Positions 5,350 through 60,783 of a stretch of 64,000 nucleotides of DNA are shown here, piece after piece (position 1 is the first letter of the stretch; each line of letters begins with the position of its first letter). A model generated the notes under the pieces. It had not been told where the DNA came from. It searched no databases and saw only the letters and a program-made list of their open reading frames with translations. Position numbers and translations under genes: made by a program. The DNA comes from Candidatus Poribacteria bacterium (GTDB lineage Bacteria > Poribacteria > WGA-4E > JAJDTR01), in contig JAPPIK010000041.1 of the NCBI GenBank assembly GCA_028820655.1, positions 62,001 through 126,000 of the forward strand, in the 5' to 3' direction.

Positions 5350-5378
5350 TTGATATTAGAAACAGGTTGTAGTAGAAT
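5350..5378 (+). promoter_or_regulatory. Putative sigma-70-type promoter of the first lectin-like gene
   Basis: TTGATA (5350-5355) and TAGAAT (5373-5378) are separated by 17 bases. They lie about 70 bases upstream of the probable GTG start at 5450. The call rests on sequence resemblance only. Confidence 0.45.
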
Positions 5379-5449: not shown

Positions 5450-6751
5450 GTGAACCGGTTGTCCCGCAGCAGTTTCACCCCGTTTATGCATAAAGGATGT
5501 ATTGTGATCGGAATCGTCGCTTCGTGGCTGATAGTATCGTCACTTGGCGCCGTTCCGGCAACCACGGCTTCTGTGTCGGGCCGCGTCCTCGACGTCGATG
5601 GAGTTCCAATCCCCGGGTTTTTGATAGCTGTTCAGTACGTCGAGATCGCGGAAAACATCGTGTGGCTAACCCATCTGTTTGAGGAAGATGAACACGTCCT
5701 CGGAGCGTACGCTGCTTTGCCTAGATCGATAACCGATGATACGGGGCGATTCACTTTTTCAGATATTATCCCCGGTCCAATCCAGTTCATCGCCCAACCT
5801 CCCCATCTGCCGCCTGAAGAGCCGCTGCCACCCGATTTTGATGTGGAGATATTCGATCCGGACGCCGAGATACTGTCAATCAAACGCGGGGCGATAACAT
5901 TTTATCCGTACAACCAAGAACCTCCCCCGTTCGGGGGTATCACGTTTGCCATTGAACCCGGGGCACACCTCCAAAATCTTGAAGTCACGGCAAGACCTCG
6001 GATGCGAATTCGCGCGCAAGTGGTTTTTTCCGACGGTACTCCTCTCTCTGATGCGGAGGTTCAGATTGATGTGCGCCAGCGGGAATTTGACGGGAGCGGT
6101 TTCGGAAGCACAGGTGGAGCGCATCGGACGGACGATGAAGGTTTCTTCCTACACTATGTGGATGAGCCTGCGTTCTACACGGTTGCGGTCGAATTTCAAG
6201 GGCTTTCGGCGTCTTCAAAGCAGTTCGCGCTTGAAAATGGAGAACGACGCGATGATTTGGTTCTTTCCTTTGACAGCGATCCGGTGCCTGTGGAACCAAC
6301 TCCTGAGCGGGAGCAACTGGAAGATGAGGGAGAGTGGGTGGTGAACCCAGAAAATGGGCACTCCTATAAGGTCATTCATTGCGAGAACCCGGAGGACGCT
6401 CGGGCGAAAGCGATCAGCGAGGGTGCGCATTTGGTCTCGATCAACGATGCGGCTGAGCAGAAATGGCTCGTGAGCATCTTTGGGAGCGCGCCCTATTGGA
6501 TAGGACTAACGGATGTAGAGAAGGAGGGCGAGTGGCGCTGGACGAACGGGGAAGCAGTCGGTTACACGAACTGGGCTCCGAATGAACCATTGGACGCGGA
6601 TTGGGGAGATGAGAATCATGTATTTATGGGGTTGTCGCCGGATGGGAAGTGGTATGATGTTGGACCCGAAAGCCCGACGTGGCGGATGACGCAAATGGCT
6701 ATCATCGAAAAGGAAAGTTTGTCTCCGAAACCGCCGAAAAGTGAGAAGTAA
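5450..6751 (+). CDS. Secreted C-type-lectin-fold protein (paralogue 1)
   Basis: I chose the GTG start at 5450 because AGGAGGT (5436-5442) sits 7 bases upstream; an in-frame ATG at 5399 lacks this support. The 433-residue product begins with a basic stretch and a hydrophobic segment (about residues 14-35), so it is exported or membrane anchored. A carboxypeptidase-regulatory-like beta domain (VSGRVLDVDG.P) follows. Residues 296-420 form a C-type lectin domain with the hallmarks WIGL (about 350), GEWRWTNGE and YTNWAPNEP. The usual cysteine pairs and an EPN/QPD sugar motif are absent (EPL here). It is a clear paralogue of the gene at 9400. Function and ligand are unknown; surface recognition is an inference. 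Confidence 0.8.
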   Translation: MNRLSRSSFTPFMHKGCIVIGIVASWLIVSSLGAVPATTASVSGRVLDVDGVPIPGFLIAVQYVEIAENIVWLTHLFEEDEHVLGAYAALPRSITDDTGRFTFSDIIPGPIQFIAQPPHLPPEEPLPPDFDVEIFDPDAEILSIKRGAITFYPYNQEPPPFGGITFAIEPGAHLQNLEVTARPRMRIRAQVVFSDGTPLSDAEVQIDVRQREFDGSGFGSTGGAHRTDDEGFFLHYVDEPAFYTVAVEFQGLSASSKQFALENGERRDDLVLSFDSDPVPVEPTPEREQLEDEGEWVVNPENGHSYKVIHCENPEDARAKAISEGAHLVSINDAAEQKWLVSIFGSAPYWIGLTDVEKEGEWRWTNGEAVGYTNWAPNEPLDADWGDENHVFMGLSPDGKWYDVGPESPTWRMTQMAIIEKESLSPKPPKSEK

Positions 6752-7132
6752 TGCCACTTCGATTGAATAATGTTGCGTATGATGCTTTATATTTTACTAG
6801 GCGAAAAGCCCTATTCCAACCATCACCCCGCATACCCGGTAGGCGGAAATCAAACGAGTGAACAGCGAGTGCGATAGAAGTCCCGATGCCCCGTCTCGGA
6901 GAGGCTTGACTAACGCTATTAATGCACTGCTGATATGGAGAATTGCTACAATCCAAGTTCCGACCGATGCAAAGGAATCCCGAGATTTTGAAGGGCAAAT
7001 CCTTCACGCAGGCTAAATTGGCTTATTTGCGCCGAAGCTTGTGTCCATGCCATCGAAAATAATTAGACAATTTCAAACATTCTTGATTCTGGGCATACCG
7101 GAATGTCGTCGTACTATCGCCGAGGTGTCGAA
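6752..7132. other. Gene-free spacer
   Basis: No supportable gene is present. A family D repeat in reverse orientation lies at 6851-6882 (CGAGTGAACAGCGAGTGCGA then TAGAAG). Confidence 0.4.
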
Positions 7133-9019
7133 TTGAAAACACTATTGACCGTACTTTCGCTTTTCGCATTTTCCTCATTAAACGCGTCTCAAGAATTCCC
7201 TCAGTGGAGTTTGCCCGAAGGGGTTAAGGCACGTCTCGGCAAAGGCGCCGCAAGCCAAATACAGTTTTCACCCGACGGCGCGCGGCTCGCCGTGGGCACT
7301 GATATCGGGACCTGGATTTACGACACAACAACCCACAAATCGAATGCACTAATCGCCGTGAATGCGGGCTATGTCCGGAGTCTGACGTACAGCCCGGATG
7401 GCAGCCTGCTGGCGATTGGGAGTTTGGACAATAATGTCCATCTTTGGAATGACGCAACAGTTGAGCATCTGCTAACTTTGGAGGGCCACACTGCGGGGGT
7501 CATTAATACGATCTTTAGTGAGGACGGCGCTGCGCTTTCAAGCGCGGGTTACGACAACACCATCCGTCTTTGGGATACCGTGACGGGAGAACAGAAGTCG
7601 TCATTGGAATTAACGAGTCTGAGCGATCAGATGCATTGGGGCGCAGGCAGAGTGTTCAGCCCGGACAGTTCAATTCTTGCAGTCTGGGATTATGGGAATG
7701 ACATTTACATGTGGGATGCGTCAACGGGAACCCGCCTGCGCACGCTGAAAGGACATACGGAACATGCTACAAGCGCTGCCTTCAGCCCGGACGGATCAAT
7801 ACTGGCAAGCGGGAGTTGGGGTGACAGCGTCCGTTTGTGGAATGCGGCTAACGGCGCTCCTTTGCGCCAGCTCCTTGATGACGAAGCACAAAAGATCAAG
7901 TGCGTGGAATTTAGCCCGGATGGAAGCATTCTGGCGTGCGGGTACAATGACAATTCAGTCCGATTGTGGGATGTCGCGTCGGGGGCGCTATTGCGAAGGC
8001 TGGGGGGGCATACGGGTTGGGTTTTTGACATCGCCTTCAGCCCGGATGGCGCTACGCTCGCAACTGCTAGCGACGACGCGACAATTCGCTTTTGGAAAAC
8101 TGCGACAGGCGCGCAGCTAGCTACCTTAATGGGACACATGCCTTCAGTCTACACCATCGCTTTTGGCCCGGATGGCGCGATACTGGCAAGTGGGAATCGG
8201 GGCAATCCCGCTCGTCTGTGGGATGTCGTGACAGGTGCGTATAAACGTTCGATAGGACGAGAGTTTTCGAGTGCTAATAGCCTTGCCTTTGGACCGAATG
8301 GACGTCGGTTGGCGATCGGAGGTGGTTACCAAATCGTAGAGCTTTGGAATGTCAGAACGGGTAGAAGCCTCCGAACATTAATTAACGACGATGGGGCCGA
8401 CCATAGCATTGCGTTCAGCCCGGATGGATCGACACTGGCAAACTGGAACGGAGAGACCGCCATTCATTTGTGGAATCCCAACAAAGGCGTGATACTGCGT
8501 ACGCTTGAGTGGGACCCCCAGGAAATTACCCAAAACGTGTACAGACCGGCACGATCCACCTTGGCGTTTAGTCCGGATGGCGCGATGCTGGCGGTTGGTA
8601 GTCTCGACACTACGATCCGTCTTTGGAATGTTGCAACCGGTACGCACCAGCGATCCCTGAAAGGGCATACGGCTGACATCATTAGCGTTGCTTTTAGTCC
8701 GGTTGGAAGCATGTTGGTAAGCGGCAGCGGGGATCAAACCGCGCGCATCTGGGACATTGATACAGGGGAGTGTTACCGTGTTTTGGAGGGGCACACTTCG
8801 CACGTCACTACAGTCGCCTTCAGTCCGGATGGGGACACCGTAGCTAGTGGTAGCCGTGACAGCCATATTCGTCTCTGGGAGACGGAGACAGGGGCGCATA
8901 AGCGGACACTAAAAGGGCACGGTTCTGATGTCATTAGCGTTTCGTTCAGCCCTGATGGCAGAACGTTGGGAAGTGGTAGTTACGACGGCACCGTGCTCTT
9001 GTGGGACCTTTCGCGTTAG
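7133..9019 (+). CDS. Secreted protein with 14 WD40 repeats
   Basis: I favour a TTG start at 7133, with GAGGTG (7122-7127) 5 bases upstream; it begins a good signal peptide (KTLLTVLSLFAFSSLNAS). An ATG at 7103 is the alternative. I count 14 WD-type repeat ends (for example RLWDTVTG, RLWNAANG, RLWDVASG, RIWDIDTG, LLWDLSR), each preceded by an AFSPDG-type strand. Fourteen repeats fit two seven-bladed beta propellers and fill the whole mature protein, so no enzymatic domain is present. WD40 propellers are protein-interaction scaffolds; export to the periplasm or surface is inferred from the leader. The gene lies between two lectin-like paralogues. Confidence 0.88.
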   Translation: MKTLLTVLSLFAFSSLNASQEFPQWSLPEGVKARLGKGAASQIQFSPDGARLAVGTDIGTWIYDTTTHKSNALIAVNAGYVRSLTYSPDGSLLAIGSLDNNVHLWNDATVEHLLTLEGHTAGVINTIFSEDGAALSSAGYDNTIRLWDTVTGEQKSSLELTSLSDQMHWGAGRVFSPDSSILAVWDYGNDIYMWDASTGTRLRTLKGHTEHATSAAFSPDGSILASGSWGDSVRLWNAANGAPLRQLLDDEAQKIKCVEFSPDGSILACGYNDNSVRLWDVASGALLRRLGGHTGWVFDIAFSPDGATLATASDDATIRFWKTATGAQLATLMGHMPSVYTIAFGPDGAILASGNRGNPARLWDVVTGAYKRSIGREFSSANSLAFGPNGRRLAIGGGYQIVELWNVRTGRSLRTLINDDGADHSIAFSPDGSTLANWNGETAIHLWNPNKGVILRTLEWDPQEITQNVYRPARSTLAFSPDGAMLAVGSLDTTIRLWNVATGTHQRSLKGHTADIISVAFSPVGSMLVSGSGDQTARIWDIDTGECYRVLEGHTSHVTTVAFSPDGDTVASGSRDSHIRLWETETGAHKRTLKGHGSDVISVSFSPDGRTLGSGSYDGTVLLWDLSR

Positions 9020-9399
9020 TGAAGCGACGAAAGGCTGAGATGTGCCACGAAACAAGTTACATTAGCCGCCAATTAACGGATCGTGGGATCGGTTTGAATC
9101 ATGAGCTTCATTGTCGTTTTGGTCATTTCGCGGGAGGCAGTTATCCAATATTATTTCCCTCTGGCAACCCGAAAAGTCCGATCTGCGATTTGATGATTGA
9201 AGCTTAGAGTGGTTGGTAGGATCCCAATCGCGCTCATTCTTCATTCGCTCCACTGCACTGCGCACGCTACGAGAATTTATCTTGATATTGGGTCTCGCTT
9301 GGTTCTATCGAAATTATGTCGCGTGGATATCCTATTTCGCGGTCGCGATCCGCTTCCTTGATCGTTATCCCCTTGCTTTATACCTAGGTGGTCTTTGCC
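9020..9399. other. Gene-free spacer
   Basis: No gene is supported. A weak family-D-like stretch (CTCATTCTTCATTCGCTCC) lies near 9232-9250. Nothing else is recognisable. Confidence 0.35.
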
Positions 9400-10656
9400 A
9401 TGAAGCGACTATACTCCACACTTGCAGTTGCAGGTACCCTTCTTCTTATCGTGCCGCTGTATGGTATTTTTGCCGGCGGCACGTCCAGTTTATCCGGTCG
9501 TGTTGTCGATTTGCAAGGGCAGCCTGTCCCAGGATTTGGACTGATCCTTGAGCCGGTTCGCGTAGAACCGATTCCTGTCCAACCAACACCCTTGGAACGC
9601 GATGAGAATGTTGATGATTCGGAACATCAATCGGACGTAACGGCTTTTGTAACGCGCACCGACAAATCGGGGCGCTTTGCCATCCACAATTTCCCGCCAC
9701 AGAAGTTTCAAATAGCGCAGTATACGAGGTTTGAGCGCGAGTCCGTGGCAGAGTACGAGATTCTGTCGATGCAAGTCGGAACGATGACGGTGCATCAGCA
9801 CGAGCCGGCACCTTTCGGAGGCATCGTGTTTTCCATTGAACCGGACGCAGATATCGAGAACGTCGAGATCAGAGTGAAACCGCGGCAGCATATTCGCGGG
9901 AAGATCGTGTTCGCCGATGGGACGCCGCTGGTCAGCGGGAGGATCAATATAAACGTACAACGTCGCTCTCCCGATGGTACGGGCAGCGGCAGCTCGAGTT
10001 CCTCCGGGGAGACAGACGACAGCGGCTACTTTGCGTTCCACGCAGACGAAACGGCGATCTACACGGTAACGGTGAACCATCAAGGACTCTCCGCGACAGC
10101 CGAACCGTTTTTGTTGAAAGAGGGAGAAAATAAGGGGAATCTGCTATTCACGTTCGATAGCGCGCCGATTTCCTCGGATGCAACCGATGGTCGAATCGAA
10201 GTCTCCGCCGAGGCGTCGACATCATCGACCCCCGGCGACGAGGCGGCGTGGGTCGTAAATCCGACAACCGGGAATGCTTACAAGAAAATTCAATGCAGGA
10301 GTTGGGACGATGCGAACATTCAGGCTGTTGCCGAAGGTGCGCATCTGGTTACGATTAACGACGCAGCGGAGCAAATATGGCTCTCGAAAATCTTTGGGCG
10401 TCGCCTCTATTGGACCGGGTTGACCGATTATGCGACGGAGGGTGAATGGGCTTGGGAAAGCCGAGAGCCGGTGGATTACACCAACTGGGCGGTCCACGAA
10501 CCGCAAGATGACGATTCGGGAGACGAAGATTTTGTCATCATGAATTTTTCAGGCGAATGGTCCAATGTTGGGCCCAACAGCGTAGAATGGCAAATGGTGC
10601 GATTGGCTATCATAGAAAAAGATGGCGTCATAACAACACCGACCGGAGAGAAGTAA
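9400..10656 (+). CDS. Secreted C-type-lectin-fold protein (paralogue 2)
   Basis: The ATG at 9400 is preferred because AGGTGG (9386-9391) lies 8 bases upstream. The 418-residue product opens with KRLYSTLAVAGTLLLIVPL, a signal peptide or membrane anchor. It then repeats the architecture of the gene at 5450: a regulatory-like beta domain (LSGRVVDLQGQPVPGF), a middle beta region and a C-terminal C-type lectin domain with WTGLTDY, GEWAWESREPV and YTNWAVHEP. Shared strings such as NDAAEQ.WL and IFG show that the two genes arose by duplication. The EPN/QPD motif reads EPQ and only one cysteine is kept in the domain. A TonB receptor gene starts 65 bases downstream, so co-transcription is plausible. 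Confidence 0.8.
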   Translation: MKRLYSTLAVAGTLLLIVPLYGIFAGGTSSLSGRVVDLQGQPVPGFGLILEPVRVEPIPVQPTPLERDENVDDSEHQSDVTAFVTRTDKSGRFAIHNFPPQKFQIAQYTRFERESVAEYEILSMQVGTMTVHQHEPAPFGGIVFSIEPDADIENVEIRVKPRQHIRGKIVFADGTPLVSGRININVQRRSPDGTGSGSSSSSGETDDSGYFAFHADETAIYTVTVNHQGLSATAEPFLLKEGENKGNLLFTFDSAPISSDATDGRIEVSAEASTSSTPGDEAAWVVNPTTGNAYKKIQCRSWDDANIQAVAEGAHLVTINDAAEQIWLSKIFGRRLYWTGLTDYATEGEWAWESREPVDYTNWAVHEPQDDDSGDEDFVIMNFSGEWSNVGPNSVEWQMVRLAIIEKDGVITTPTGEK

Positions 10657-10721
10657 CCAATCAAGCAGAGCGGCAATTCTGCTAAAACCTTTAGTTTTTC
10701 AACATCAAAGGAGAATAAACC

Positions 10722-13205
10722 ATGTTGAAGATTTTTGCAGCCCTTTCAGTCATTGTTGTATTCTTTGCCTCTTCACTCGCCGCACAGGAGGAGGAAGCGG
10801 CAACTCCAATCGAACTTGAAGAGATTGTCACTATTGGTACGCGCGTGCCCGAGCGGAGCCGGCTCGATTCGCCGGTACCGGTCGACGTGATCAACGAGGA
10901 TGCCATCCGAAAGACGGGACATACCGAAGTTGGACGTGTGTTGCAGACATTGGCGCCGTCGTTTAACTTTTCGAGTTCATCAATCAGCGACGGTACCGAT
11001 GCGCTTCGCCCAGCAACGCTAAGGGGTTTGGGACCGGATCAGGTGCTTGTGCTTGTCAACGGGAAACGGCGGCACGGCAGCGCGCTGATTCACGTGAATA
11101 CCTCAGTCGGTCGAGGCACGGCGGGTGTGGACATGAACGCGATCCCGGCGAACGCTATCAAACGAATCGAGATCCTGCGCGATGGCGCCTCGGCGCAGTA
11201 TGGATCCGATGCGCTGGCAGGGGTCATAAACCTCGTGCTCAAGGATGATTACGAAGGAGCGTTCGGCACCTCTTACGGCTCAACCTACGAGGGAGACGGC
11301 GAGACGTTCACACTGAATGCGCATAAAGGGTTTAAATTCGGTGAGGATGGCACGATACACGGGGCGATTGAGTACCGGGACAGGCAGCCGACCAACCGCG
11401 CAGGTATGACCGGCGTCATTCAGTATCCCGATACCGAAACCGGGGAGGGCGCTCCCGTGCAGGTTACCAACGACGCCGGGAACAAAGAACATAGCTTTGA
11501 CCGCCAAAATTTTCGTATCGGCGATGCGGAATCCCGCCACGGCGCCGTAGTGCTGAACTTGGACAAACCGATTGACAGCATTTGGGAGGGGGCCACTTTC
11601 TACAGTTTCCTCGATTACTCAAATCGGCAGAACACCAGCGCCGGATTTTATCGGAGAGCGAATCAACTCGACCGCAACCCGGAGGGTTCGGACTATCCCG
11701 ACGGATTCCTTCCGTTAATCAACACCAGCGTTTTGGATTACTCTATCGGTGTGGGTGTCAAGCAGAAGTTCGGTAACGACTTACGGATGGACGCGAGCGT
11801 GGTTACGGGCGGCAACAGCTTTGCGTTCAACGTGAGCAATTCGCACAATGCATCGCTAGTCGCGGCAGAGGGTTCCAGCCCCTCATCAGCGGATGCGGGT
11901 GATCTGCGTCTCTTCCTCAACACGGTCGATTTGGATTTCTCGCTTCCGATGAGTTGGGGTAACGTTGCGTTCGGCGGTGGATTTCGGAACGACATCTATC
12001 AGATCGCCGCGGGCGAGGAGGTTTCCTACGAGGATTATGACGGTCCCGGCGGCGCCTCCGGCGGCATTCAGGTTTTCCCCGGCTTTCAGCCGTCCAATGA
12101 GGTGAATGAACTGCGCACCGCCTTTGCGTTTTACACCGATGTCGAGGTAAACCCCATCGAATCGGTGTTCGTCAATCCGGCGGCTCGCGTCGAGAACTAT
12201 AGCGACTTCGGTTCCACCGTCAACGGGAAGTTGGCGCTGCGCTATGAGCCGGCAGACGCCCTAGCACTGCGTGGTTCGGCAAGCACCGGATTCCGCGCGC
12301 CTTCCATGCAGCAACTGTATTTCAACAACGTAAGCACCCAATTCAATACAGTTGATGGGCAGTCAGTCGCTCAGGAAATCGGCACTTTCCGAAACGACAG
12401 CGACATCGCCGATGCCGTCGGGATTCCCGAATTGACCGAGGAAACCGCGGTCAACCTGAGCGGCGGATTCATTCTGCGACCGATGCCTCGGTTGACGCTT
12501 ACGACGGACTTTTACCGGGCAACAATCAGTGACCGCATCATCATCAGCGGACGGTTGTCGAGCGGCAATGAATCCATTCCGGCAGGAATTCGAGCGAGCC
12601 TCGCAGACTCGGGCGTCGCCGGAGCGCAGTTCTTCATGAACGCGGCAGACACCGAAACGCGGGGAATAGATTTTGTGGCATCGTATACCTATCCCGTGTT
12701 GGATAGCGCCTCGCTAGCGTTCAGTTTCGCCGCGAACTATACGGAAACGGAAATCACCGACGTGAATCTGCCGGCTGATCTTCCGGAGTCCCTCTTCACC
12801 GAGCAGGACCGTTCTATCGTTGAGTCGTGGCAACCGAAGGACCGTGTTTCCATGTCGACGCGCTATACCGGCGACTCCTTGGCTGTCGATTACGCCGTAC
12901 ATCGTTACGGAGAATACACCGTGATTGACGGCGGAAAGCGCCAAACCTTCACCCCGAAGTATCTCACCGATGTTCAAATCAGCTACGGATTGGGTGAATA
13001 CGGAAGAATCAAGATCGGCGCGAATAACCTGTTCAACGTCACGCCGGATGAAAATCGTGTCGGTCAATCGCGCGGCGGGAAGATCGTGGATACGTGGGGG
13101 AACATCATTGTGGATTCTCCGGGGGTATTCACGTATTCGCGGCGGTCAGCGCCGTTTGGTTTCAACGGTGGGTTGTATTATATCGCTTGGGAGAATGCGT
13201 TTTAA
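10722..13205 (+). CDS. TonB-dependent outer-membrane receptor
   Basis: This 827-residue protein has a signal peptide ending near SSLAAQ, then the TonB box/plug region: IVTIGTRVPER, VDVINEDAIRKTG and the plug signature RGLGPDQVLVLVNGKRR, followed by IEILRDGASAQYGSDA.AGVIN. The rest is a beta barrel with alternating strands (EYRDRQP, RYEPADALALRGSASTGFRAPS) and a terminal phenylalanine (ENAF) typical of outer-membrane proteins. AGGAG near 10709 supports the ATG. It takes up a ligand across the outer membrane using TonB energy; the ligand cannot be read from the sequence. No exbB, exbD or tonB is present in the window. It ends at a strong terminator. Confidence 0.93.
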   Translation: MLKIFAALSVIVVFFASSLAAQEEEAATPIELEEIVTIGTRVPERSRLDSPVPVDVINEDAIRKTGHTEVGRVLQTLAPSFNFSSSSISDGTDALRPATLRGLGPDQVLVLVNGKRRHGSALIHVNTSVGRGTAGVDMNAIPANAIKRIEILRDGASAQYGSDALAGVINLVLKDDYEGAFGTSYGSTYEGDGETFTLNAHKGFKFGEDGTIHGAIEYRDRQPTNRAGMTGVIQYPDTETGEGAPVQVTNDAGNKEHSFDRQNFRIGDAESRHGAVVLNLDKPIDSIWEGATFYSFLDYSNRQNTSAGFYRRANQLDRNPEGSDYPDGFLPLINTSVLDYSIGVGVKQKFGNDLRMDASVVTGGNSFAFNVSNSHNASLVAAEGSSPSSADAGDLRLFLNTVDLDFSLPMSWGNVAFGGGFRNDIYQIAAGEEVSYEDYDGPGGASGGIQVFPGFQPSNEVNELRTAFAFYTDVEVNPIESVFVNPAARVENYSDFGSTVNGKLALRYEPADALALRGSASTGFRAPSMQQLYFNNVSTQFNTVDGQSVAQEIGTFRNDSDIADAVGIPELTEETAVNLSGGFILRPMPRLTLTTDFYRATISDRIIISGRLSSGNESIPAGIRASLADSGVAGAQFFMNAADTETRGIDFVASYTYPVLDSASLAFSFAANYTETEITDVNLPADLPESLFTEQDRSIVESWQPKDRVSMSTRYTGDSLAVDYAVHRYGEYTVIDGGKRQTFTPKYLTDVQISYGLGEYGRIKIGANNLFNVTPDENRVGQSRGGKIVDTWGNIIVDSPGVFTYSRRSAPFGFNGGLYYIAWENAF

Positions 13206-13239
13206 GCGTAACCTATCCCACAATTCGGGGCGAGAATAA

Positions 13240-13273
13240 GTTGAGGCGGGAATAGTCCCGCCTCAACTTTTTT
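13240..13273 (+). terminator. Rho-independent terminator after the TonB receptor
   Basis: Perfect 12-base arms (13240-13251 and 13256-13267, GTTGAGGCGGGA with its complement) enclose a 4-base loop and are followed by six T residues. Confidence 0.93.
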
Positions 13274-13286
13274 GCGCAAGACACCC

Positions 13287-13679
13287 ATGAAGAAATACGT
13301 GAGTGGATCCGCGGGCTCCGGATTGAGGCGACGACATTCACGGATTTGGCGCGCTAGCGTAGTCGGAACGACCATCTACGTTTTTCTGTTCACGATCACG
13401 CTAATTTGGATTCTGCACACTTCCAATAGCGGCCAATATCCTAGCCAAATACTTGGCACGCATTACGGTGGACTTTCCCTGTATCAAATCGTGTCTTTCG
13501 TCAACATTGCCTGGTTTATCGCCTTGGTTGCCGATTTGATCGTCCTCATGCGCCGCTCCCCCCGGAAAGGAATACTCGGTCCGCTATGCGGGGTTGTGTC
13601 GTCAATCATAGCGATAGCAGTCGTTCAATGGGCTGTGGAGGGGATGAAGCGCGTGGCTGAGGCTTGGGTCTTGCAGTGA
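13287..13679 (+). CDS. Small hypothetical membrane protein
   Basis: A 130-residue frame begins at ATG 13287, 13 bases after the terminator. An alternative in-frame start at 13272 would overlap the terminator. It has a basic N-terminus (GLRRRHSRIWRAS) and three hydrophobic segments: VVGTTIYVFLFTITLIWIL, ISFVNIAWFIALVADLIVLM-like, and GVVSSIIAIAVVQWAV. It is probably a three-pass inner-membrane protein. I do not recognise a family, and no good ribosome site is visible, so expression is uncertain. Confidence 0.45.
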   Translation: MKKYVSGSAGSGLRRRHSRIWRASVVGTTIYVFLFTITLIWILHTSNSGQYPSQILGTHYGGLSLYQIVSFVNIAWFIALVADLIVLMRRSPRKGILGPLCGVVSSIIAIAVVQWAVEGMKRVAEAWVLQ

Positions 13680-42117: not shown

Positions 42118-42777
42118 TCAGAGGCCAACGAGTGCGCGAAACAAGTTGAATATTCCGTAAGACACGAAACTGATTACCATAAAGACGGGATTCGGAATTC
42201 CCAAGAGGCTGGGAAGGAAAATTATTCCGAGCAGAATCATCATTCCATAAGGGCGTAGCCTGTCAAACGCCTGTGCTTGTTTCCACGGTAACAGTCCGTA
42301 GACGACACTGAATCCGTCAAGCGGAAACAGCGGAAGCATGTTGAAGGCTGCAAGAAACACGCTAATCAAAGCGGCCGTCTGCAATTGACTGTAAATTTCA
42401 CGGTGTATTGAAGGTCCGACAAATTCAACGAGGAGTTTGACCGCAAGCAGGATCACAAAAGTGCAAATGATGTTCATCACGGGACCAGCCGCCGCGATAA
42501 TCATCAGGTCACGCTTGGGATTCTGCAAATTTCGCGGGTCAACGGGCACGGGTTTCGCCCACCCGAAGAATACCGCTCCGAATAGTGAGCCGACCAAAGG
42601 CAGTATAACCGTTCCAACTATATCGATGTGCGCCGCCGGATTAAGCGTTAATCGCTCTTCGTCCCTAGCTGTAGGGTCTCCAAGCATGAGCGCCGATTTC
42701 GCGTGCCCCCATTCGTGGAAAGTCAACAAGATGATGAAATGAATTACACGAAGAATCGCGTCAAATGGATTGAGCAT
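42118..42777 (-). CDS. Site-2 protease family (M50) membrane metalloprotease
   Basis: The 220-residue protein has zinc motif HEWGH in an N-terminal helix (about residues 23-27), MIIAAAGPVMNI, and the second motif NMLPLFPLDGF with the metal-binding aspartate. Five or so membrane segments are visible. The short form without PDZ or CBS domains is the YwhC/Rip-like S2P group found near scpA-scpB. It cuts membrane-embedded substrates. ATG 42777 overlaps the CCA gene's 3' end by 17 bases. Confidence 0.92.
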   Translation of the reverse strand: MLNPFDAILRVIHFIILLTFHEWGHAKSALMLGDPTARDEERLTLNPAAHIDIVGTVILPLVGSLFGAVFFGWAKPVPVDPRNLQNPKRDLMIIAAAGPVMNIICTFVILLAVKLLVEFVGPSIHREIYSQLQTAALISVFLAAFNMLPLFPLDGFSVVYGLLPWKQAQAFDRLRPYGMMILLGIIFLPSLLGIPNPVFMVISFVSYGIFNLFRALVGL

Positions 42778-44287
42778 CGTCAAAGCCTAGAACCTCGTAA
42801 GCCTTCTGTTTTGTGGAAATCTCGCCATCCAATTGGGCTGCGAATGCCTTGGATATTAGATTTGTAAATGCTTTCCCGGGTTGCAGCCCGATTTGAATCA
42901 AATCGTCGCCCGTGATTAACGGCTCAATCTTACGCAAATTAATGAGATAGTCCTCTATCTTCTCCACACGCCATCCGGGCTGTCCCGGTTGCATCATGGC
43001 GAATACTAGAGCCTCAGCAGCGTATGGCTTCAACAGGTGATAAACTTCACTCGGTTTGGAACCGGGGGACAATGTATCAAGAGTTTCGCAAAGGTATTGA
43101 CTAGCAGCCAATTCCGTCTGAATTTCACAGATGTGGAAGGACTGATTTACTCTTCTGATGATAAACGTCTTCTTGTGGTTCCCGTCGGAGACAAGCCATC
43201 TGTTATTTCCGTCCCGAATTGTGATGTTTCGGGAGAGTGAGATGCCATTTCTTTCGAGTATTTCTCTCTTCTTCTCCGAGATTATTCCCTTTGCGAGATC
43301 CACTCCAAGGTCGGCATCCGTTTGGAACATCCTACGGAGACGATGGGGCAATACCATCCTATCCGTGATAGCTTGAATTACGTGAGTCGGGGTACCCTCA
43401 TGAAGGGACCGGGATTCATTCCAATGGGTCGCCCCCAGCAACGACAACCATGCGATCTGATTTTTTTCGATATTATCATCGGCGAACTTCGTGTCTACCC
43501 AATCAATCGCATCCTGAACCGCAACCCAATCGGAATCGAAATCCTGCGTCACTACCCATTCCGGGTGAATAGCTCGAAACACCTGAAATTGGCGAAGGCG
43601 TTGAATCATTCGCGGTACGGCGTCTTCTGCCAGGATGCGATTAATTTCGTTCCGAATACGCTCCCCGCTAATCAGGTCTAATACGTCCTGTTCGATTGCC
43701 TCACAAATGCGCGTCCGGTCTTCCGACTCAATTTGAAAACCGTAACGCCCTTCATATCTTACCGCCCGAAAGATCCGGGTCGGATCGTCAATGAAACTCT
43801 TGGAATGGAGGGCACGAACTCGTCCCGAACGAAGATCTTTAACTCCGTCGCAGCAATCAACTAGCTCGCCGAATCTCTTCGCGTTCAGTCGAACGGCGAG
43901 CGCGTTAATCGAGAAATCGCGCCGACGCAGGTCCTCTTCCATAGTACCGGGACTAACTAATGGTAACGCCCCGGGGCGCTCGTAAGTTTCGCTGCGCGCG
44001 CTGGCGAAATCAATCCTCGCTCGCGAAGGCTGAATCAGGGTTGCGGTGCCGAATCGCCGGTGCGCTTGTACTTCCCAGCCCCAATTCTCTCCAAGTTTTT
44101 GGGTAAAGCTGATAGCGTCTCCCTCAACCACGATGTCGAGATCCAGATTCTCACTCCCCAGTAGAAGGTCTCGAACAAAACCGCCAACGATGCAGATAGG
44201 TAACCGTGAATTACTACCAATGTTTCTCAGTAGGTCAAATATGTCACGCGGGATGCTTGACTGCTCGGTTAGGACTTGGTCACCCAT
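42761..44287 (-). CDS. cca: CCA tRNA nucleotidyltransferase / poly(A) polymerase family
   Basis: The 508-residue class II nucleotidyltransferase has IVGGFVRDLLLG, the metal motif LDLDIVVEG (Asp49, Asp51), RRFGTATL, EEDLRRRDFSINALA and IDDPTRIFRAVRYEGRYGF. A long C-terminal helical part follows. It adds or repairs the CCA end of tRNAs; a poly(A) polymerase or A-adding specialised form cannot be ruled out from sequence alone. It begins the cca-S2P-scpA-scpB-thrC run. Confidence 0.9.
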   Translation of the reverse strand: MGDQVLTEQSSIPRDIFDLLRNIGSNSRLPICIVGGFVRDLLLGSENLDLDIVVEGDAISFTQKLGENWGWEVQAHRRFGTATLIQPSRARIDFASARSETYERPGALPLVSPGTMEEDLRRRDFSINALAVRLNAKRFGELVDCCDGVKDLRSGRVRALHSKSFIDDPTRIFRAVRYEGRYGFQIESEDRTRICEAIEQDVLDLISGERIRNEINRILAEDAVPRMIQRLRQFQVFRAIHPEWVVTQDFDSDWVAVQDAIDWVDTKFADDNIEKNQIAWLSLLGATHWNESRSLHEGTPTHVIQAITDRMVLPHRLRRMFQTDADLGVDLAKGIISEKKREILERNGISLSRNITIRDGNNRWLVSDGNHKKTFIIRRVNQSFHICEIQTELAASQYLCETLDTLSPGSKPSEVYHLLKPYAAEALVFAMMQPGQPGWRVEKIEDYLINLRKIEPLITGDDLIQIGLQPGKAFTNLISKAFAAQLDGEISTKQKAYEVLGFDDAQSI

Positions 44288-54116: not shown

Positions 54117-55928
54117 ATGTCCATCAAGAAAAGAGACGCCGTAGGGCCTTTTGAAGAAATTCAGGATGAATCAAATCCAACAGCAAGTTCATCGGATCGA
54201 AAATCCTACAATGAAAAACAGATTCGTGAAATGGAGTTCATGATCGAATCACTGGAAAACGAGAACGATGACTTGCGAAGGCGAATTAATGCTGCGCCTT
54301 CAGATGATGCGGACGTTCGTCTCTACGAAATGACCCGTGAACTGATGCAGGCTCATCGACGGAATCGGAAGTTGACCAGCACGCTTCAGGAAGCGAAGGA
54401 GAAACTTGAACATCTGAAGGAAAAGGTGGAGCAACTGAGCGCTCCCCCAAATAACTACGGGGTTTTTCTTGCCGCTAATGATGATGGTACCATTGACATA
54501 GATCTCGGCGGTAAGAGATGGAAGGTAAAGTCCGACCCGGATATTAATGTCGATCAACTCAAGAAAGGTCAGGAAGTAATTGTAAACGGTGTTTTGAATG
54601 TGGTGGGGGTTCGAGATTTCGACCAGCGCGGCGAGGTTGTCAAAATCAAAGAAGTGCTTGATGAATCTCGTACGATCGTTAGCCTCCGTGCCGACGAGGA
54701 GCGTGTTGTAGAAATTTCCGAACCACTTAGGGATGAAAAGTTGAAGCTCGGCGACAACGTCTTACTTAACCAAGGTACGGGGATGGTAATGGAAAAACTC
54801 CCCAAAACCGAAGTTGAAGACCTCTTGCTAGAAGCCGTGCCTGATATCAGATACTCGGATATCGGCGGATTGGACGACCAAATAGAATCGATTCGCGACG
54901 CTATAGAGACTCCGTATCTTTATCCCGATGAATACAAAGAGTTTGACCTGACTCCTCCCAAAGGCATTCTGCTTTACGGCCCACCAGGGTGCGGCAAAAC
55001 GCTAATTGCAAAAGCAGTTGCAAACAGCTTGGCCACGAGAGTGCGCCAGCAGACCGGAAGGGATGATATTAAGGGTTATTTCATTAACATCAAGGGACCA
55101 GAGCTGCTGAATAAGTATGTCGGCGAAACTGAACGAAAGATTCGCGAGGTCTTTCAGAAAGCGAGCGAGAAATCCAAAGAAGGGGTGCCCGTTATTATAT
55201 TCTTTGACGAAATGGACTCACTTTTCCGCTCACGGGGAATGGGAATCTCGTCCGATATGGAATCGACTTTGGTACCTCAATTTCTTGCCGAGATCGACGG
55301 GGTTGAAAGCCTGCGTGATGTGGTTGTTATCGGCGCCAGCAATCGGCAAGACCTATTGGACCCAGCCGTGCTACGACCCGGGAGGTTGGACATTAAGATC
55401 AAGATTGATCGCCCAACAGCCGAAGGCGCGAAAGATATCTTTGCCAAGTATCTGACTTCCGATCTACCCATCGCTCCGTCCGAACTCGGACGATTTGATA
55501 ACGATAGCGGAAAAACAGTCCAGCGTCTTATCGACCAAGCCATTGATGAAATGTACGCAACTTCCGAAGAAAATAAATTTATCGAGGTGACATACGCCCG
55601 CGGCGAGCGCGACATTCTCTACTTCAAGGACTTCGTTAGTGGAGCTATGATTGAAAACATCGTTTCACGTGCGAAGAAAATGGCAATCAAACAGTTGATT
55701 AGTTCCGATGGGAAGGAAAAGGGCATGACGTTCGAGAATCTCAAGGATGCTATCCATGAGGAATATAAGGAAAACGAAGATCTGCCCAACACCACCAATC
55801 CTGACGATTGGGCAAAAATCTCTGGTCGTAAGGGTGAGAAGATTGTCAACATCAGAGCCTTGGTCAATGAATCGGAGCGTAACAAACGGAAGGATGTGAG
55901 GGTAATTAAAGGCGGCGCTTACCTTTAA
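54117..55928 (+). CDS. mpa: Proteasome-activating AAA ATPase ARC/Mpa
   Basis: The 603-residue ATPase has an N-terminal coiled coil (about residues 31-108) that in the family binds Pup, two OB-type domains (about 112-235), and an AAA core with GPPGCGKT (288-295), the DEMD Walker B (364-367) and a DLLDPAVLRPGR arginine-finger region. It ends GGAYL; a near-terminal tyrosine like this docks the ring on the 20S proteasome in mycobacteria. It unfolds pupylated proteins and threads them into the core. The gene opens an operon with dop, pup, prcB, prcA and pafA. Confidence 0.97.
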   Translation: MSIKKRDAVGPFEEIQDESNPTASSSDRKSYNEKQIREMEFMIESLENENDDLRRRINAAPSDDADVRLYEMTRELMQAHRRNRKLTSTLQEAKEKLEHLKEKVEQLSAPPNNYGVFLAANDDGTIDIDLGGKRWKVKSDPDINVDQLKKGQEVIVNGVLNVVGVRDFDQRGEVVKIKEVLDESRTIVSLRADEERVVEISEPLRDEKLKLGDNVLLNQGTGMVMEKLPKTEVEDLLLEAVPDIRYSDIGGLDDQIESIRDAIETPYLYPDEYKEFDLTPPKGILLYGPPGCGKTLIAKAVANSLATRVRQQTGRDDIKGYFINIKGPELLNKYVGETERKIREVFQKASEKSKEGVPVIIFFDEMDSLFRSRGMGISSDMESTLVPQFLAEIDGVESLRDVVVIGASNRQDLLDPAVLRPGRLDIKIKIDRPTAEGAKDIFAKYLTSDLPIAPSELGRFDNDSGKTVQRLIDQAIDEMYATSEENKFIEVTYARGERDILYFKDFVSGAMIENIVSRAKKMAIKQLISSDGKEKGMTFENLKDAIHEEYKENEDLPNTTNPDDWAKISGRKGEKIVNIRALVNESERNKRKDVRVIKGGAYL

Positions 55929-55976
55929 CTTTTAGCAAACGGCGCGAAGCGACTCGCCTCGAATCACGAACCGATT

Positions 55977-57467
55977 ATGACGACACCGATGATCATGGGC
56001 ACAGAGACCGAATATGGAATTTCGGTCAAGAATGCACGTGACCAAGACCCTGTTGCAGCCTCGACGCTGGTTGTAAACGCCTACAAGGATCGGGAGCTAA
56101 AGGGAGTTACGTGGGATTATGATCAGGAATCCCCGTTGATGGACGCCCGAGGCTTCATGTCTGAAGGCGAGAGTGACACGCCAGACCGGGAAAACAACAG
56201 TTTGATCAACGATATTCTGATCAATGGCGGCAGGTATTACGTTGACCATGCGCATCCGGAATACTGCACGCCGGAATGCACCAATCCGCGTGATCTTGTT
56301 ATCTATGAAAAGGCGGGCGAACTAATACTCGATTTGAGCCGCCTTGCTGCAGAAGAACTCTTGCCTAATAATCAAGAAATAATTATATACAAAAATAACA
56401 CAGATTATAAGGGACACAGTTACGGTTCTCATGAAAACTATTTGATGTCTCGGACGGTTCCGTTTCAGGATATTGTCGACGGGTTGACTCCCTTCTTGGT
56501 TACCCGTCAGATTATTGCCGGCAGCGGTAAATTAGGCGCGGAAAACGGTTCGGAAGAAACTGATTACCAAATTTCGCAACGCGCTGATTTCTTCGAAACG
56601 GAAATAGGATTAAGTACGATGGTAGCGCGTCCAATCATCAACACGCGCGATGAACCGCACGCTGACGAAAAACTTTTCCGTAGGTTACACGTCATCGTTG
56701 GTGATTCGAACATGTCGGAACTTGCCATCTACTTGAAGGTTGGAATCACATGCCTCACGCTCCAACTCATTGAGAAGGGCATACTTGGTGAGAGGTTCAA
56801 ACTCTCCACTCCCGTAACCGACATCAAAAAAGTGTCGCGCGATCTATTGTGTAAAACCAAGCTAATCTTGGAAGATGGACGAAGGCGGACGTCAATTGAA
56901 ATCCAACGCGAATATCTCGGTTTGGCACGAGATCATCTTTCCGATGCAAGTACATCGCCCATCATGAGCGACGTGATGGACAAATGGGAGTTCGTGTTGA
57001 ACCGACTGGAAGCAGATCCGATGAGCCTGAATGGGGTCTTGGATTGGGTAACCAAGAAAAAGCTGATTGACGCTTATATACAACGTCACGGTCTTAAATC
57101 GTCAGATCCGCGCGTCCGTATGCTCGACCTTCAGTATCACGACATTCGACCGGATAAAGGGCTTTATGCTCGTCTGCTTAAGAATGGACGTGTAAAACAG
57201 TTTGTCAATCGGGAAGAGGTAGTTCACGCGATTACAAATCCACCGGTAGATACCCGCGCCTATTTCCGTGGCACCTGCCTGAAGAGGTTTCCCAACGAAA
57301 TCCATAGTGCAAGTTGGAACTCTATGATTTTTTGCCTTAATGGTTCATCTCTGGACAAAATCTTGATGGATCGTCCGCATTTTGGGACTCGGGAAATTGT
57401 TGGTAACCTTTTGAGCAACAGGTGTGCCGAAGAAGTTGTCAAGGAAATATCCGCGAATTCCTCATGA
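55977..57467 (+). CDS. dop: Pup deamidase/depupylase Dop
   Basis: The 496-residue protein is a glutamine-synthetase-like enzyme starting with IMGTETEYGIS, with YVDHAHPEYCTPEC (catalytic aspartate), KNNTDYKGHSYGSHENYLM and RPIINTRDEPHAD. It has the extra loop of Dop (about residues 35-70, GVTWDYDQESPLMDARGF and onward) that PafA lacks. Dop turns the C-terminal glutamine of Pup into glutamate and also removes Pup from targets. The gene follows mpa by 48 bases. A family D repeat separates it from pup. Confidence 0.96.
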   Translation: MTTPMIMGTETEYGISVKNARDQDPVAASTLVVNAYKDRELKGVTWDYDQESPLMDARGFMSEGESDTPDRENNSLINDILINGGRYYVDHAHPEYCTPECTNPRDLVIYEKAGELILDLSRLAAEELLPNNQEIIIYKNNTDYKGHSYGSHENYLMSRTVPFQDIVDGLTPFLVTRQIIAGSGKLGAENGSEETDYQISQRADFFETEIGLSTMVARPIINTRDEPHADEKLFRRLHVIVGDSNMSELAIYLKVGITCLTLQLIEKGILGERFKLSTPVTDIKKVSRDLLCKTKLILEDGRRRTSIEIQREYLGLARDHLSDASTSPIMSDVMDKWEFVLNRLEADPMSLNGVLDWVTKKKLIDAYIQRHGLKSSDPRVRMLDLQYHDIRPDKGLYARLLKNGRVKQFVNREEVVHAITNPPVDTRAYFRGTCLKRFPNEIHSASWNSMIFCLNGSSLDKILMDRPHFGTREIVGNLLSNRCAEEVVKEISANSS

Positions 57468-57505
57468 GAACCTAAAGGATAAGTGATTTAGTGCGGGGAG
57501 GTTTC

Positions 57506-57554
57506 TATGCGAGTTCTACTATCGCGTTCCATATTCAGTCGCTTGATCCCTACG
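57506..57554 (+). repeat. Family D dispersed repeat within the proteasome operon
   Basis: CTATGCGAGTTCTACTATCG, CGTTCCATATTCAGTCGC and TTGATCCCTAC follow one another. The element lies in the 170-base dop-pup gap, the only large gap in the operon. Confidence 0.65.
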
Positions 57555-57637
57555 AATCTACTTTGGCCGGCGCTTTAAATCGATTTTATTAAATGAGCTG
57601 ATGTAATCCTCGATTGCAGAATCCGAAAGGGGGCAAC

Positions 57638-57838
57638 ATGCGATCCGAACAGCAAGAGAAGGAGCAGCGAGACAACAAGCCTCAGGATATTGAGGACATT
57701 CAACCGGATGCCGAACTCGCCGAACAGGGCGAAGAACTCTCGGAAGACCTTGATCAAATTCTTGACGAGATTGATGAAATCCTAGAAGAAGATTCCGAAG
57801 AATTTGTCGAGAACTACATTCAAAGGGGAGGACAGTAG
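57638..57838 (+). CDS. pup: Prokaryotic ubiquitin-like protein Pup
   Basis: The ATG at 57638 has AAAGGGGG just upstream and gives a 66-residue, highly acidic protein (about 64 is usual for Pup). It starts RSEQQEKEQRDNKPQD, has a helical centre (LSEDLDQILDEIDEILEE) and ends EFVENYIQRGGQ, the Pup tail with two glycines and terminal glutamine. The glutamine form must be deamidated by Dop before PafA attaches it to lysines. It has only two lysines itself (8 and 14). The proteasome beta gene starts 2 bases downstream. Confidence 0.97.
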   Translation: MRSEQQEKEQRDNKPQDIEDIQPDAELAEQGEELSEDLDQILDEIDEILEEDSEEFVENYIQRGGQ

Positions 57839-57840
57839 TC

Positions 57841-58665
57841 GTGTTCGACGATCGCGATTACAGCTCCTCTAACTTTGTTGAGGTGCTCAGACAGAGATGT
57901 CCGGATCTATTAGCACCGTTTCATGCAGCAAACCCGCCTACACATTCGCGTCAATTAGCCCCGCTTTCGGGCACCTTCTCCAACCCACCTTTGGACCTTC
58001 TCGAAGGCACAACAGTGTTAGCCGCAGTTTATGACGAGGGGGTTGTCATCGCCGGAGATCGCCAGGCAACAGACGGCTTTCAAGTCGGTGAGCGCCGCAT
58101 TGAAAAGGTCTTTGAGATTGATAAAACTTCCGCTATTGCTATCGCCGGAATTGCCGGTTTAGCGATTGAGATGGCAAGGTTGTTCCAGGTCCAAGTCGAG
58201 TTTTACGAAAAGATAGAAGGTACCATGTTGAGCCTCGATGGCAAAGCAAACTTTCTATCGAATTGGTTGCGATCAAACCTTGAGATGGCTTTGGAAGGTC
58301 TGATTGTCGTCCCAATTTTCGCCGGTTATGACGATAAGCAGGAGCAAGGGCGTATCTTCAAGTACGACGCAATTGGCGGACGCTACGACGAAAGCGCCTA
58401 TTACGCAATCGGATCCGGTGGTAAAGACGCACGATCCACGTTAAAAAAGCTTTATCGCCCTGGCATGTCTCGCGATGAAATTTTAAAGATTGTAGCCGAA
58501 GCGCTTTGGGATGCCGCCGATGAGGATTTGGGGACGGGCGGACCGGATTTGATTCGAGACATCTTTCCGACGATTAAGGTGATCGACAATGACGGCATTT
58601 CGGACATCCCGGAATCCGAAGTCAAGGAGCTTTACACGGAACTTCTGGAAAGATTGAAAGATTAA
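57841..58665 (+). CDS. prcB: 20S proteasome beta subunit
   Basis: The 274-residue protein from GTG 57841 has a 56-residue propeptide that would be cut before Thr57 (EG-TTVLAAVYDEGVV). Counting from this Thr as 1, Asp17 and Lys33 are in place, so the active site is complete. The body contains AIAGIAGLAIEMARLFQV and YYAIGSGGKDARSTLKKL. Fourteen beta subunits form the two inner, proteolytic rings. The gene is adjacent to pup and 24 bases before prcA. Confidence 0.97.
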   Translation: MFDDRDYSSSNFVEVLRQRCPDLLAPFHAANPPTHSRQLAPLSGTFSNPPLDLLEGTTVLAAVYDEGVVIAGDRQATDGFQVGERRIEKVFEIDKTSAIAIAGIAGLAIEMARLFQVQVEFYEKIEGTMLSLDGKANFLSNWLRSNLEMALEGLIVVPIFAGYDDKQEQGRIFKYDAIGGRYDESAYYAIGSGGKDARSTLKKLYRPGMSRDEILKIVAEALWDAADEDLGTGGPDLIRDIFPTIKVIDNDGISDIPESEVKELYTELLERLKD

Positions 58666-58689
58666 TCACGCCAATTGAAGGAGGTGAGA

Positions 58690-59406
58690 ATGTCCTCACC
58701 GTACTACGTGTCGCCGGAGCAAATTATACAGGACAAGCGTGACCTTGCCCAGCGCGGAATTGAACAGGCGAAAGAGGTGATTGCTCTGGAGTATAACGGT
58801 GGCATTGTGATGGTCGCCGAAAATCCGTTGACAACCGTTTTTAAAATTTCAGAGGTTTATGATCGGATAGCCTTAGCCGCGACGGGATTGTCACCGGAAT
58901 ATGAAGCCTTAAGGACCTACGGGATTGAACAAGCGGAAATCAAAGGATTCAATTACAATCGTGAGGATGTCACTGCTAAGTGGCTTACCACAGTATATTC
59001 GCAACGGATTGGGGCTATTTTTCGGGAATGGGATATGAAACCGCTTGAAGTCGAATTGCTGGTTTGCGAAGTGAAAGGCGGTTCCTCTTCAAGCAATCGC
59101 ATATATCATCTTTCTTTTGACGGCACCTTCGGGGAAGAGGAGCAGTTCGCAGTTATCGGAGGGCGGGCAGATGCGATTATTGAGATTCTTGAGCAAGATC
59201 ACCGGGAAGGAATGGCGTTAGAGGATGCTGTTCGCCTCGGAATCAAAGCCTTTGAAACCATTGAAGCGGAGGTTGATGAGGCAATTTCGGAAGAGCCCCG
59301 ATATGAAATTGTAGCCGATACCATTGAGGTAGCGCTACTTGATGAAGAACAAGGACGACGTAGGTTTCGACGCCTTCGTCCAGAAGAACTCGATAAAATT
59401 TTTTAG
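58690..59406 (+). CDS. prcA: 20S proteasome alpha subunit
   Basis: The ATG at 58690 follows AAGGAGGTGA (58678-58687) and gives SSPYYVSPEQIIQDKRDLAQ, the N-terminal gate helix of bacterial alpha subunits. The 238-residue protein continues GGIVMVAENP and ISEVYDRIALAATGLSPEYE, with a short acidic-to-basic tail. Alpha rings cap the beta rings and control entry; they have no active-site Thr, as seen here. The pafA start is 3 bases downstream. Confidence 0.97.
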   Translation: MSSPYYVSPEQIIQDKRDLAQRGIEQAKEVIALEYNGGIVMVAENPLTTVFKISEVYDRIALAATGLSPEYEALRTYGIEQAEIKGFNYNREDVTAKWLTTVYSQRIGAIFREWDMKPLEVELLVCEVKGGSSSSNRIYHLSFDGTFGEEEQFAVIGGRADAIIEILEQDHREGMALEDAVRLGIKAFETIEAEVDEAISEEPRYEIVADTIEVALLDEEQGRRRFRRLRPEELDKIF

Positions 59407-59409
59407 CGC

Positions 59410-60783
59410 ATGGACCGTAGGATTTACGGACTAGAAAACGAATACGGTATCATCTGCACACCGGAGCGGCGTGGGGGAAAGGCGCTTTCGATTCAAAATG
59501 CAGTCATGTACCTATTCCGCGAGATAATCTCGGGGCGAATGTACCCGGATGTGTTCCTTGAAAACGGCGCGCGTTTCTATCAAGATATTGGATGCCACCC
59601 TGAATACGCCACCCCCGAATGTGACAATGTCATAGAGCTGCTCACACACGATAAGGCAGGAGAGCGGATTATCGAGCGACTCTCCACCACCGCCGAAAAA
59701 AAGATGCGATTCGACGGTTTTTTCGGGAAGATCTCGGTCTTCAAAAACAACACCGACACTCCCGGGAATACCTACGGTTGCCATGAGAATTACTTAATGG
59801 ATCGGCGGGTCAGTTTTCGCCAACTCGCCTCGCAGCTTATCCCCTTCTTCGTCACACGCCAAGTCTTCACCGGTGCCGGTAAAGCCATACGCACCGATCG
59901 CGGTAAGTACGTCATCTCCCAACGTGCACAACACATTCGCGAGGAAATCTCTATCGCGACAACAACAGCACGCGGCATCATCAACACGCGGGACGAGCCG
60001 CATGCAGACCGCGAAAAATACAGGCGATTGCACGTCATAGTTGGCGATTCGAACATGTCCGAATTTGCTACCTTCCTCAAAGTAGGAACAACCGCAATCG
60101 TATTGCGCATGATTGAGGACAATTTCATTAGGCAACGTCTCGCATTGCGTAACTCGGTCAAAGCAATTCAAGAGATATCAACAGACACAACGTGCTCACG
60201 CAATATTGAGTTGGAAAATGGGAAACGACTTACTGCTGTCGAGCTTCAATGGCAATACTTTGAGTGCGCAAAGCACTATTTTGAGCAGGCAGAATCAGAT
60301 TCGATCACCGACCAAGTAATGGAAAGATGGGAATACACGTTGAAGTGTCTAGAAGTAAATCCCTTACTGCTCGATCGAGAACTTGACTGGGTCATCAAGA
60401 AAAAATTAATCGAGACTTATGTTGCCAGCCGGAACCTAAAATGGGATTCTAACGACGTCTTGATGTTGGATTTGCAATACCATAACATTCGAAGAGAAGG
60501 GGAAACAAAGAAAACAGGATTATACTACAAACTGGAACAAAAGGATCAAGTAGAGCGGATGGTTACCGATGAACAGGTCGACAAGGCGATGCATCTTCCT
60601 CCCGAAACTACGCGCGCGAAGTTTCGCGGTCGTTTCGTGAAACTGGCGAATGAAAGGAAAATTCTTTGCGGCGTTAATTGGAGTTATATCCAGCTTTACG
60701 AACCCTATCAGAAGCTATTTCTCTCAACTGATCCCCTGAAATCGGAATATGAAGAAGCCAGCCGTATGATTTATTCGATTTGA
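59410..60783 (+). CDS. pafA: Pup-protein ligase PafA
   Basis: The 457-residue ligase starts RRIYGLENEYGI, has RFYQDIGCHPEYATPEC with the catalytic aspartate, KNNTDTPGNTYGCHENYLMD, TARGIINTRDEPHAD and HVIVGDSNMSEF. It lacks the Dop loop. It uses ATP to join the C-terminal glutamate of Pup to lysines of target proteins. It is a distant homologue of dop in the same operon. In actinobacteria pafB and pafC usually follow; here a gene-poor stretch and an SDR gene follow. Confidence 0.97.
   Translation: MDRRIYGLENEYGIICTPERRGGKALSIQNAVMYLFREIISGRMYPDVFLENGARFYQDIGCHPEYATPECDNVIELLTHDKAGERIIERLSTTAEKKMRFDGFFGKISVFKNNTDTPGNTYGCHENYLMDRRVSFRQLASQLIPFFVTRQVFTGAGKAIRTDRGKYVISQRAQHIREEISIATTTARGIINTRDEPHADREKYRRLHVIVGDSNMSEFATFLKVGTTAIVLRMIEDNFIRQRLALRNSVKAIQEISTDTTCSRNIELENGKRLTAVELQWQYFECAKHYFEQAESDSITDQVMERWEYTLKCLEVNPLLLDRELDWVIKKKLIETYVASRNLKWDSNDVLMLDLQYHNIRREGETKKTGLYYKLEQKDQVERMVTDEQVDKAMHLPPETTRAKFRGRFVKLANERKILCGVNWSYIQLYEPYQKLFLSTDPLKSEYEEASRMIYSI

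Follow-up and report, generated by a model that had tools for sequence, protein, structure and literature searches.

One-piece extracytoplasmic function (ECF) sigma factors comparable to the proteins reported here are represented in reviews by ECF52, ECF57 and IutY (PMC8999054, PMC5826349). ECF52 (Streptomyces SCO4117) combines an ECF sigma factor, a transmembrane (TM) helix and an extracytoplasmic carbohydrate-type binding domain in one polypeptide, for which release by proteolysis has been proposed (PMC5826349, PMC8999054). ECF57 of Planctomycetes has a WD40-like C-terminal extension, for which a role in protein interaction is discussed (PMC8999054). Neither lectins nor sigma factors are mentioned in the main single-cell genomics paper on Poribacteria (PMC3909097). 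A full-text search of open-access papers found no description of poribacterial C-type lectins or of a sigma-lectin fusion, and the novelty of both is provisional. Poribacteria are a phylum with many sponge symbionts, and sensing and recognition by sponge symbionts have so far mostly been inferred from lists of eukaryote-like domains.

The window analysed here comprises 64,000 nucleotides, positions 62001-126000 of contig C17 in the 5.88-Mb assembly of a Candidatus Poribacteria bacterium (genome G000). A sequence-only reading had described in it four consecutive genes on one strand, encoding two secreted lectin-like paralogues, a secreted WD40 protein between them and a TonB-dependent receptor, and had taken them for one surface recognition or capture system with eukaryote-like domains of the kind seen in sponge symbionts. 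All four reading frames are open and on the plus strand (Table 1), and the eukaryote-like domains and the poribacterial origin are upheld. The small ORF at 13272-13679, which the earlier block had included, starts past the strong terminator, has no family match and is no member of the unit. As a set of four, the genes do not form a conserved system; the real unit is the pair of proteins A and C in fixed order, which can now be separated from its incidental neighbours in the window. The eukaryote-like domains belong to a defined, repeated genetic unit of fixed order, and the same ectodomains also occur fused to transcription factors. Elsewhere in the window, positions 54117-60783 hold a complete Pup-proteasome locus with a proteasomal ATPase, two Pup-ligase family proteins and two proteasome subunits, within which a Pup-like ORF of 74 aa ending in GGQ lies at 57614-57838.

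Table 1. Features of the lectin-pair locus (window coordinates).
Feature	Position	Strand	Remarks
Sigma-70-type promoter-like site TTGATA-17-TAGAAT, 5' of A	5350..5378	+	single match plus sister conservation
Protein A, first-of-pair lectin-like, 433 aa	5450..6751	+	signal peptide, two carboxypeptidase-regulatory-like beta domains, C-type lectin domain
Protein A start codon GTG	5450	+	AGGAGG upstream
Secreted WD40 protein, 14 repeats	7103..9019	+	subfamily is that of WD40 proteins inside sister-family lectin arrays
Protein C, second-of-pair lectin-like, 418 aa	9400..10656	+	ATG 9400 taken; in-frame GTG also at 9388
TonB-dependent receptor, conserved core gene	10722..13205	+	plug and barrel domains; adjacency genus-specific
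Strong intrinsic terminator after receptor	13238..13269	+	dG -26 kcal/mol, z -6.1; conserved in sister genome

Signal peptides, Pfam matches and 42% identity over 417 aa bear out that A and C are secreted paralogues, each with beta domains and a C-type lectin domain. The carboxypeptidase-regulatory-like domain PF13620 was found in A and C with E values of 7e-10 and 7e-12, and the C-type lectin domain PF00059 with 3e-12 and 1e-10. The latter matches are well over the curated cut-off and, together with the C-type lectin fold, place both proteins in PF00059. The family profile, searched against PDB sequences, matches mannose-receptor-type lectin domains. In the AlphaFold model of protein C (mean pLDDT 75.6), a beta-sandwich stalk carries the C-type lectin domain. 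The modelled head superposes on the lectin domains of CD23 and the scavenger receptor with a target TM of about 0.75-0.8, and the modelled stalk matches pilin-like sandwiches of the Cna-B/SpaA type. No lipobox was found in A, C or the WD40 protein; A and C show no recognised outer-membrane sorting signal and no sortase motif, and an NCBIfam search gave no equivalog for either.

The W/G scaffold of the lectin head is invariant, and loops 364-376 and 384-400 differ strongly among paralogues in both sequence and length. The classical Ca2+/sugar motifs EPN/QPD and WND are not conserved in the family heads: of their residues only E367 (49%), P368 (52%) and the final W387 (100%) persist, and the N and D positions of WND vary. 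Conserved intradomain disulphides are also absent, most members having one cysteine per protein. Position C299 of protein C, at the start of the head, is a cysteine in 91% of full members, usually the only one, and this cysteine is missing in about 9% of members; an intermolecular disulphide through it may reasonably be inferred. Between sister genomes, dN/dS is 0.33 for A and 0.29 for C, and both genes are under purifying selection. The variable loops of the window pair give 0.13-0.19 between orthologues, with no diversifying selection found on them; one f4 loop comparison reached 1.0 on very few sites. Purifying selection prevails on the loops when orthologues are compared, so they represent a fixed repertoire and are not hypervariable. 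Purifying selection within orthologues combined with variation among paralogues is as expected for fixed, pair-specific ligands.

Homologues of the lectin family are present in 70 of 85 Poribacteria genomes, with as many as 21 in one genome. Most lie in tandem arrays of 2-12 genes, and copy number varies widely between genomes. In a tree of 106 full-length members, the A and C clades of families f1/f2 have supports of 0.998 and 0.987, respectively, and the order of transcription in these families is A then C wherever both could be placed. This order is found at the window, in the sister genome, at contig C41 of the same genome, at two loci of G015 and in G020, and G017 holds three A-C repeats in order. 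One short member in G021 and the first member in G019 are unplaced, and the rest of these arrays fit the A-C order. Arrays of family f4 alternate between paralogue types too. Across all arrays, identity at even spacing exceeds that at odd spacing by 0.050, a difference reached by none of 5000 order shuffles (largest 0.027). The alternation shows the A-C pair to be the unit of evolution; since tandem duplication of a two-gene unit gives the same pattern, it speaks for an evolutionary unit only and does not imply physical contact between the proteins. In the lectin tree, A and C of f1/f2 group together (0.988), which could reflect separate duplications or gene conversion; as the deep order is weakly supported, we do not claim the A/C split as one ancient duplication. 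Shortened members of ~250-280 aa, which keep the beta domains and have no lectin head, often occur near array ends (L021:8775-9524; L032, L033, L036, L039).

Part of the family is fused to a sigma factor. In these homologues a single ORF encodes ECF sigma regions 2 and 4, a single helix at about residue 220-280 (called by hydropathy only), the beta domains and the lectin head; this is the one-piece transmembrane ECF architecture, and a zinc-finger anti-sigma domain found no match in the fused proteins scanned. The fusion is of the first-of-pair type in the arrays mapped. The same genome contains a second A-C pair, at C41, whose first gene carries an ECF sigma part. No such part is present in the window pair, which is linked to the C41 fusion by homology only. 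Full-length fusions of f4 type were found in 17 genomes, a count in which the G082 copy has one in-frame TAG and the G065 copy was matched only to residue 605, and fusions of f1/f2 type in the genome of the window and in G015. An assembly error is an unlikely source, because fusions also occur in complete single-contig genomes. In the sigma tree, the sigma parts of f1/f2 fall together with sigma-carboxypeptidase-regulatory fusions (support 1.0), those of f4 with sigma-propeller fusions (support 0.93). Since the two fused types fall in different sigma clades, the sigma-lectin fusion apparently arose at least twice, in two Poribacteria lineages; loci with such independently arisen fusions are L031, L033, L034, L036, L039, L042, L020 and L027. 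An alpha (eukaryotic-type) carbonic anhydrase gene lies beside the C41 sigma-lectin pair (L020:12143-13060).

Proteins with an ECF sigma-TM-ectodomain layout form a very large family in these bacteria (G082, L074-L077; in the genome of the window, L044-L073, L078 and L079). Sigma region 2 is matched 102 times in the complete genome G082 (78 of these in ORFs >380 aa) and 34 times in the genome of the window (16 in ORFs >380 aa). Within the clusters that were examined, paralogues share ~73% identity in the sigma-TM part and ~30% in the ectodomains, which are of WD40, Asp-box/sortilin-like, carboxypeptidase-regulatory or unknown type. Such a set of near-identical sigma parts joined to differing ectodomains looks like a multitude of sensors feeding a single output. 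A gene for an M50-family site-2 protease lies at window 42118-42783; such proteases could release membrane-bound sigma parts.

The promoter-like site upstream of A is a single match, which is not above chance alone, and it is kept in the sister genome as TTGATT-17-TAGAAT. Sites of the sigma-70 type precede 79% of array-first genes, 8% of inner genes and 31% of other genes, with 22% in shuffled sequence, and this bias supports transcription of the arrays as operons by the primary sigma factor. Because array-first genes carry such promoters, the fused sigma is disfavoured as a direct activator; the arrays are probably not its direct targets, and simple autoregulation of the arrays was rejected on the same ground. 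At the other end of the locus, C and the receptor are separated by 65 bp. The two genes may share a transcript in this genus, as the strong terminator follows the receptor and has a counterpart in the sister genome (L024:13880-13917).

The two remaining genes of the block have a looser relation to the pair. The WD40 protein has the repeats and the secretion that had been read for it, with a 42-residue period and an N-terminal hydrophobic signal, and its 14 repeats are expected to form two seven-bladed propellers. It falls in a subfamily (support 0.97) which includes two copies at C32 of the same genome, and in three arrays of the sister family (G017, G020 and G021) members of this subfamily lie next to A-C pairs or between them. 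WD40 genes are abundant, with about 270 matching segments in the genome of the window, and the WD40 gene is absent at the same locus in sister genome G013. We treat it as an optional, lineage-specific partner of the pair. The receptor, whose plug and barrel domains confirm its type, is present in 56 of 83 genomes, its orthologues being 83-97% identical within the order and about 54% in the large family f4. It follows C in the sister genome too; beyond this genus, no lectin genes were found close to it in any genome where the two could be located. In single-contig genomes, receptor and lectin genes lie some 0.1 Mb or more apart, and G022 and G009 carry the receptor and no lectin gene. The receptor evolves ~8-fold more slowly than A and C, with a dN/dS of 0.04 between the sister genomes. 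The window receptor scores far below the SusC cut-off, and no SusD profile match was found. The receptor is probably not a functional part of the pair but a separate, slowly evolving core uptake gene. Thus, of the single recognition or capture set first suggested, the secreted recognition-type domains, the association of A with C and the recurrence of WD40 proteins in several lectin arrays stand, whereas the receptor drops out, being unlinked elsewhere; the genes do not stay together in relatives, the receptor failing outside the genus and the WD40 gene already in G013. The lectin/WD40 arrays of family f2 come immediately downstream of an operon of a TonB receptor, HmuY, a binding protein, FecCD and an ABC ATPase (L030:11846-18412, Pfam-checked; L026:90-7168), and at C42 of the genome of the window similar gene sizes and order flank a truncated lectin gene (L021:12036-19098).

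Based on the observed family, gene order, fusions and conservation, we propose a model for the pair. In it, A and C make up a stand-alone pair of the family, each with a stalk of transthyretin-like (carboxypeptidase-regulatory-like) sandwiches and a terminal head of C-type lectin fold. The two would form a recognition heteromer of the envelope, in the periplasm or at the surface, as their genetic pairing suggests, perhaps joined through the cysteine that most members keep, and each pair would have its own ligand, bound by the variable loops of the heads. In fused copies such as the one at C41, ligand binding would lead to regulated intramembrane proteolysis and release of the sigma part. The unfused window pair would be a soluble binding form or a decoy/co-receptor form, with the WD40 protein optional and the receptor separate. 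We put the chances of this model at about even. A broader version is rather doubtful, namely that Poribacteria possess expandable paired C-type-lectin receptors with one ligand per pair, whose sigma-fused copies report binding to transcription and of which the window pair is the soluble arm. If true, this would give bacteria a counterpart of a multigene innate recognition repertoire. With their predicted ligand-binding heads, A, C and the sigma-A fusion offer a testable receptor hypothesis.

The resemblance of the stalks to Cna-B/SpaA-type sandwiches, together with the large variation in copy number, would also suit envelope proteins of a structural or adhesive kind, which attach cells to one another or to the sponge matrix and sense nothing. 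We regard this as unlikely, as the repeated fusion of the ectodomain with ECF sigma factors indicates that some of the family, at least, takes part in signalling, and A and C have none of the sorting, lipoprotein or sortase signals sought. That A, C and the WD40 protein bind a substrate which the adjacent receptor imports is quite improbable. The common strand, the short gap with one shared terminator, the receptor following C in the sister genome as well, a different TonB-receptor/HmuY/haem-type ABC import operon immediately preceding lectin/WD40 arrays in the sister family, and the truncated lectin gene and WD40 gene near the same kind of import genes in L021 speak for it; against it stand the separation of receptor and lectin genes outside the genus, the two genomes with the receptor alone, the gap in dN/dS, the WD40 gene missing from the sister genome and the lack of a SusD-like lipoprotein.

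A real pair that has lost its function here, with the WD40 and receptor genes as unrelated insertions, would agree with a locus that has no sigma member and with how extremely common WD40 genes are. This too deserves little credence: A and C are open, under purifying selection and preceded by a conserved promoter-like site, and the WD40 protein belongs to the array-associated subfamily. The C-type lectin fold is the usual target fold of diversity-generating retroelements, and the strong differences in the loops among paralogues would fit an array diversified in this way or by antigenic recombination. The chance of this is close to nil, since the genome of the window has no reverse transcriptase, the reverse transcriptases of array-rich genomes lie away from the arrays, and the loops are under purifying selection between orthologues.

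Compared with known systems, the poribacterial proteins share the head fold, a WIGL-type core and sequence-detectable homology with metazoan C-type lectins (the macrophage mannose receptor family, CD23 and the scavenger receptor C-type lectin). Unlike these, they lack the conserved Ca2+/sugar motifs and disulphides, have a carboxypeptidase-regulatory-like stalk, and are paired and in arrays. Similar to SusC/SusD-type and other TonB-dependent capture systems, a TonB receptor lies beside secreted binding proteins; it differs in its SusC score, in the missing SusD and in an association that is not conserved. The sigma-propeller fusions of these genomes resemble ECF57 in joining a sigma factor to a beta-propeller extension, whereas neither a lectin head nor a secreted pair is described for ECF57. 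The fused homologues, though not the window copy, share with ECF52 the one-piece layout of sigma factor, TM helix and ectodomain. ECF52, for which reports are confined to Actinobacteria, has a zinc-finger anti-sigma domain between the sigma part and the membrane, whereas no zinc finger was found in the poribacterial fusions scanned; these fusions carry a C-type lectin head and have paired secreted paralogues alongside.
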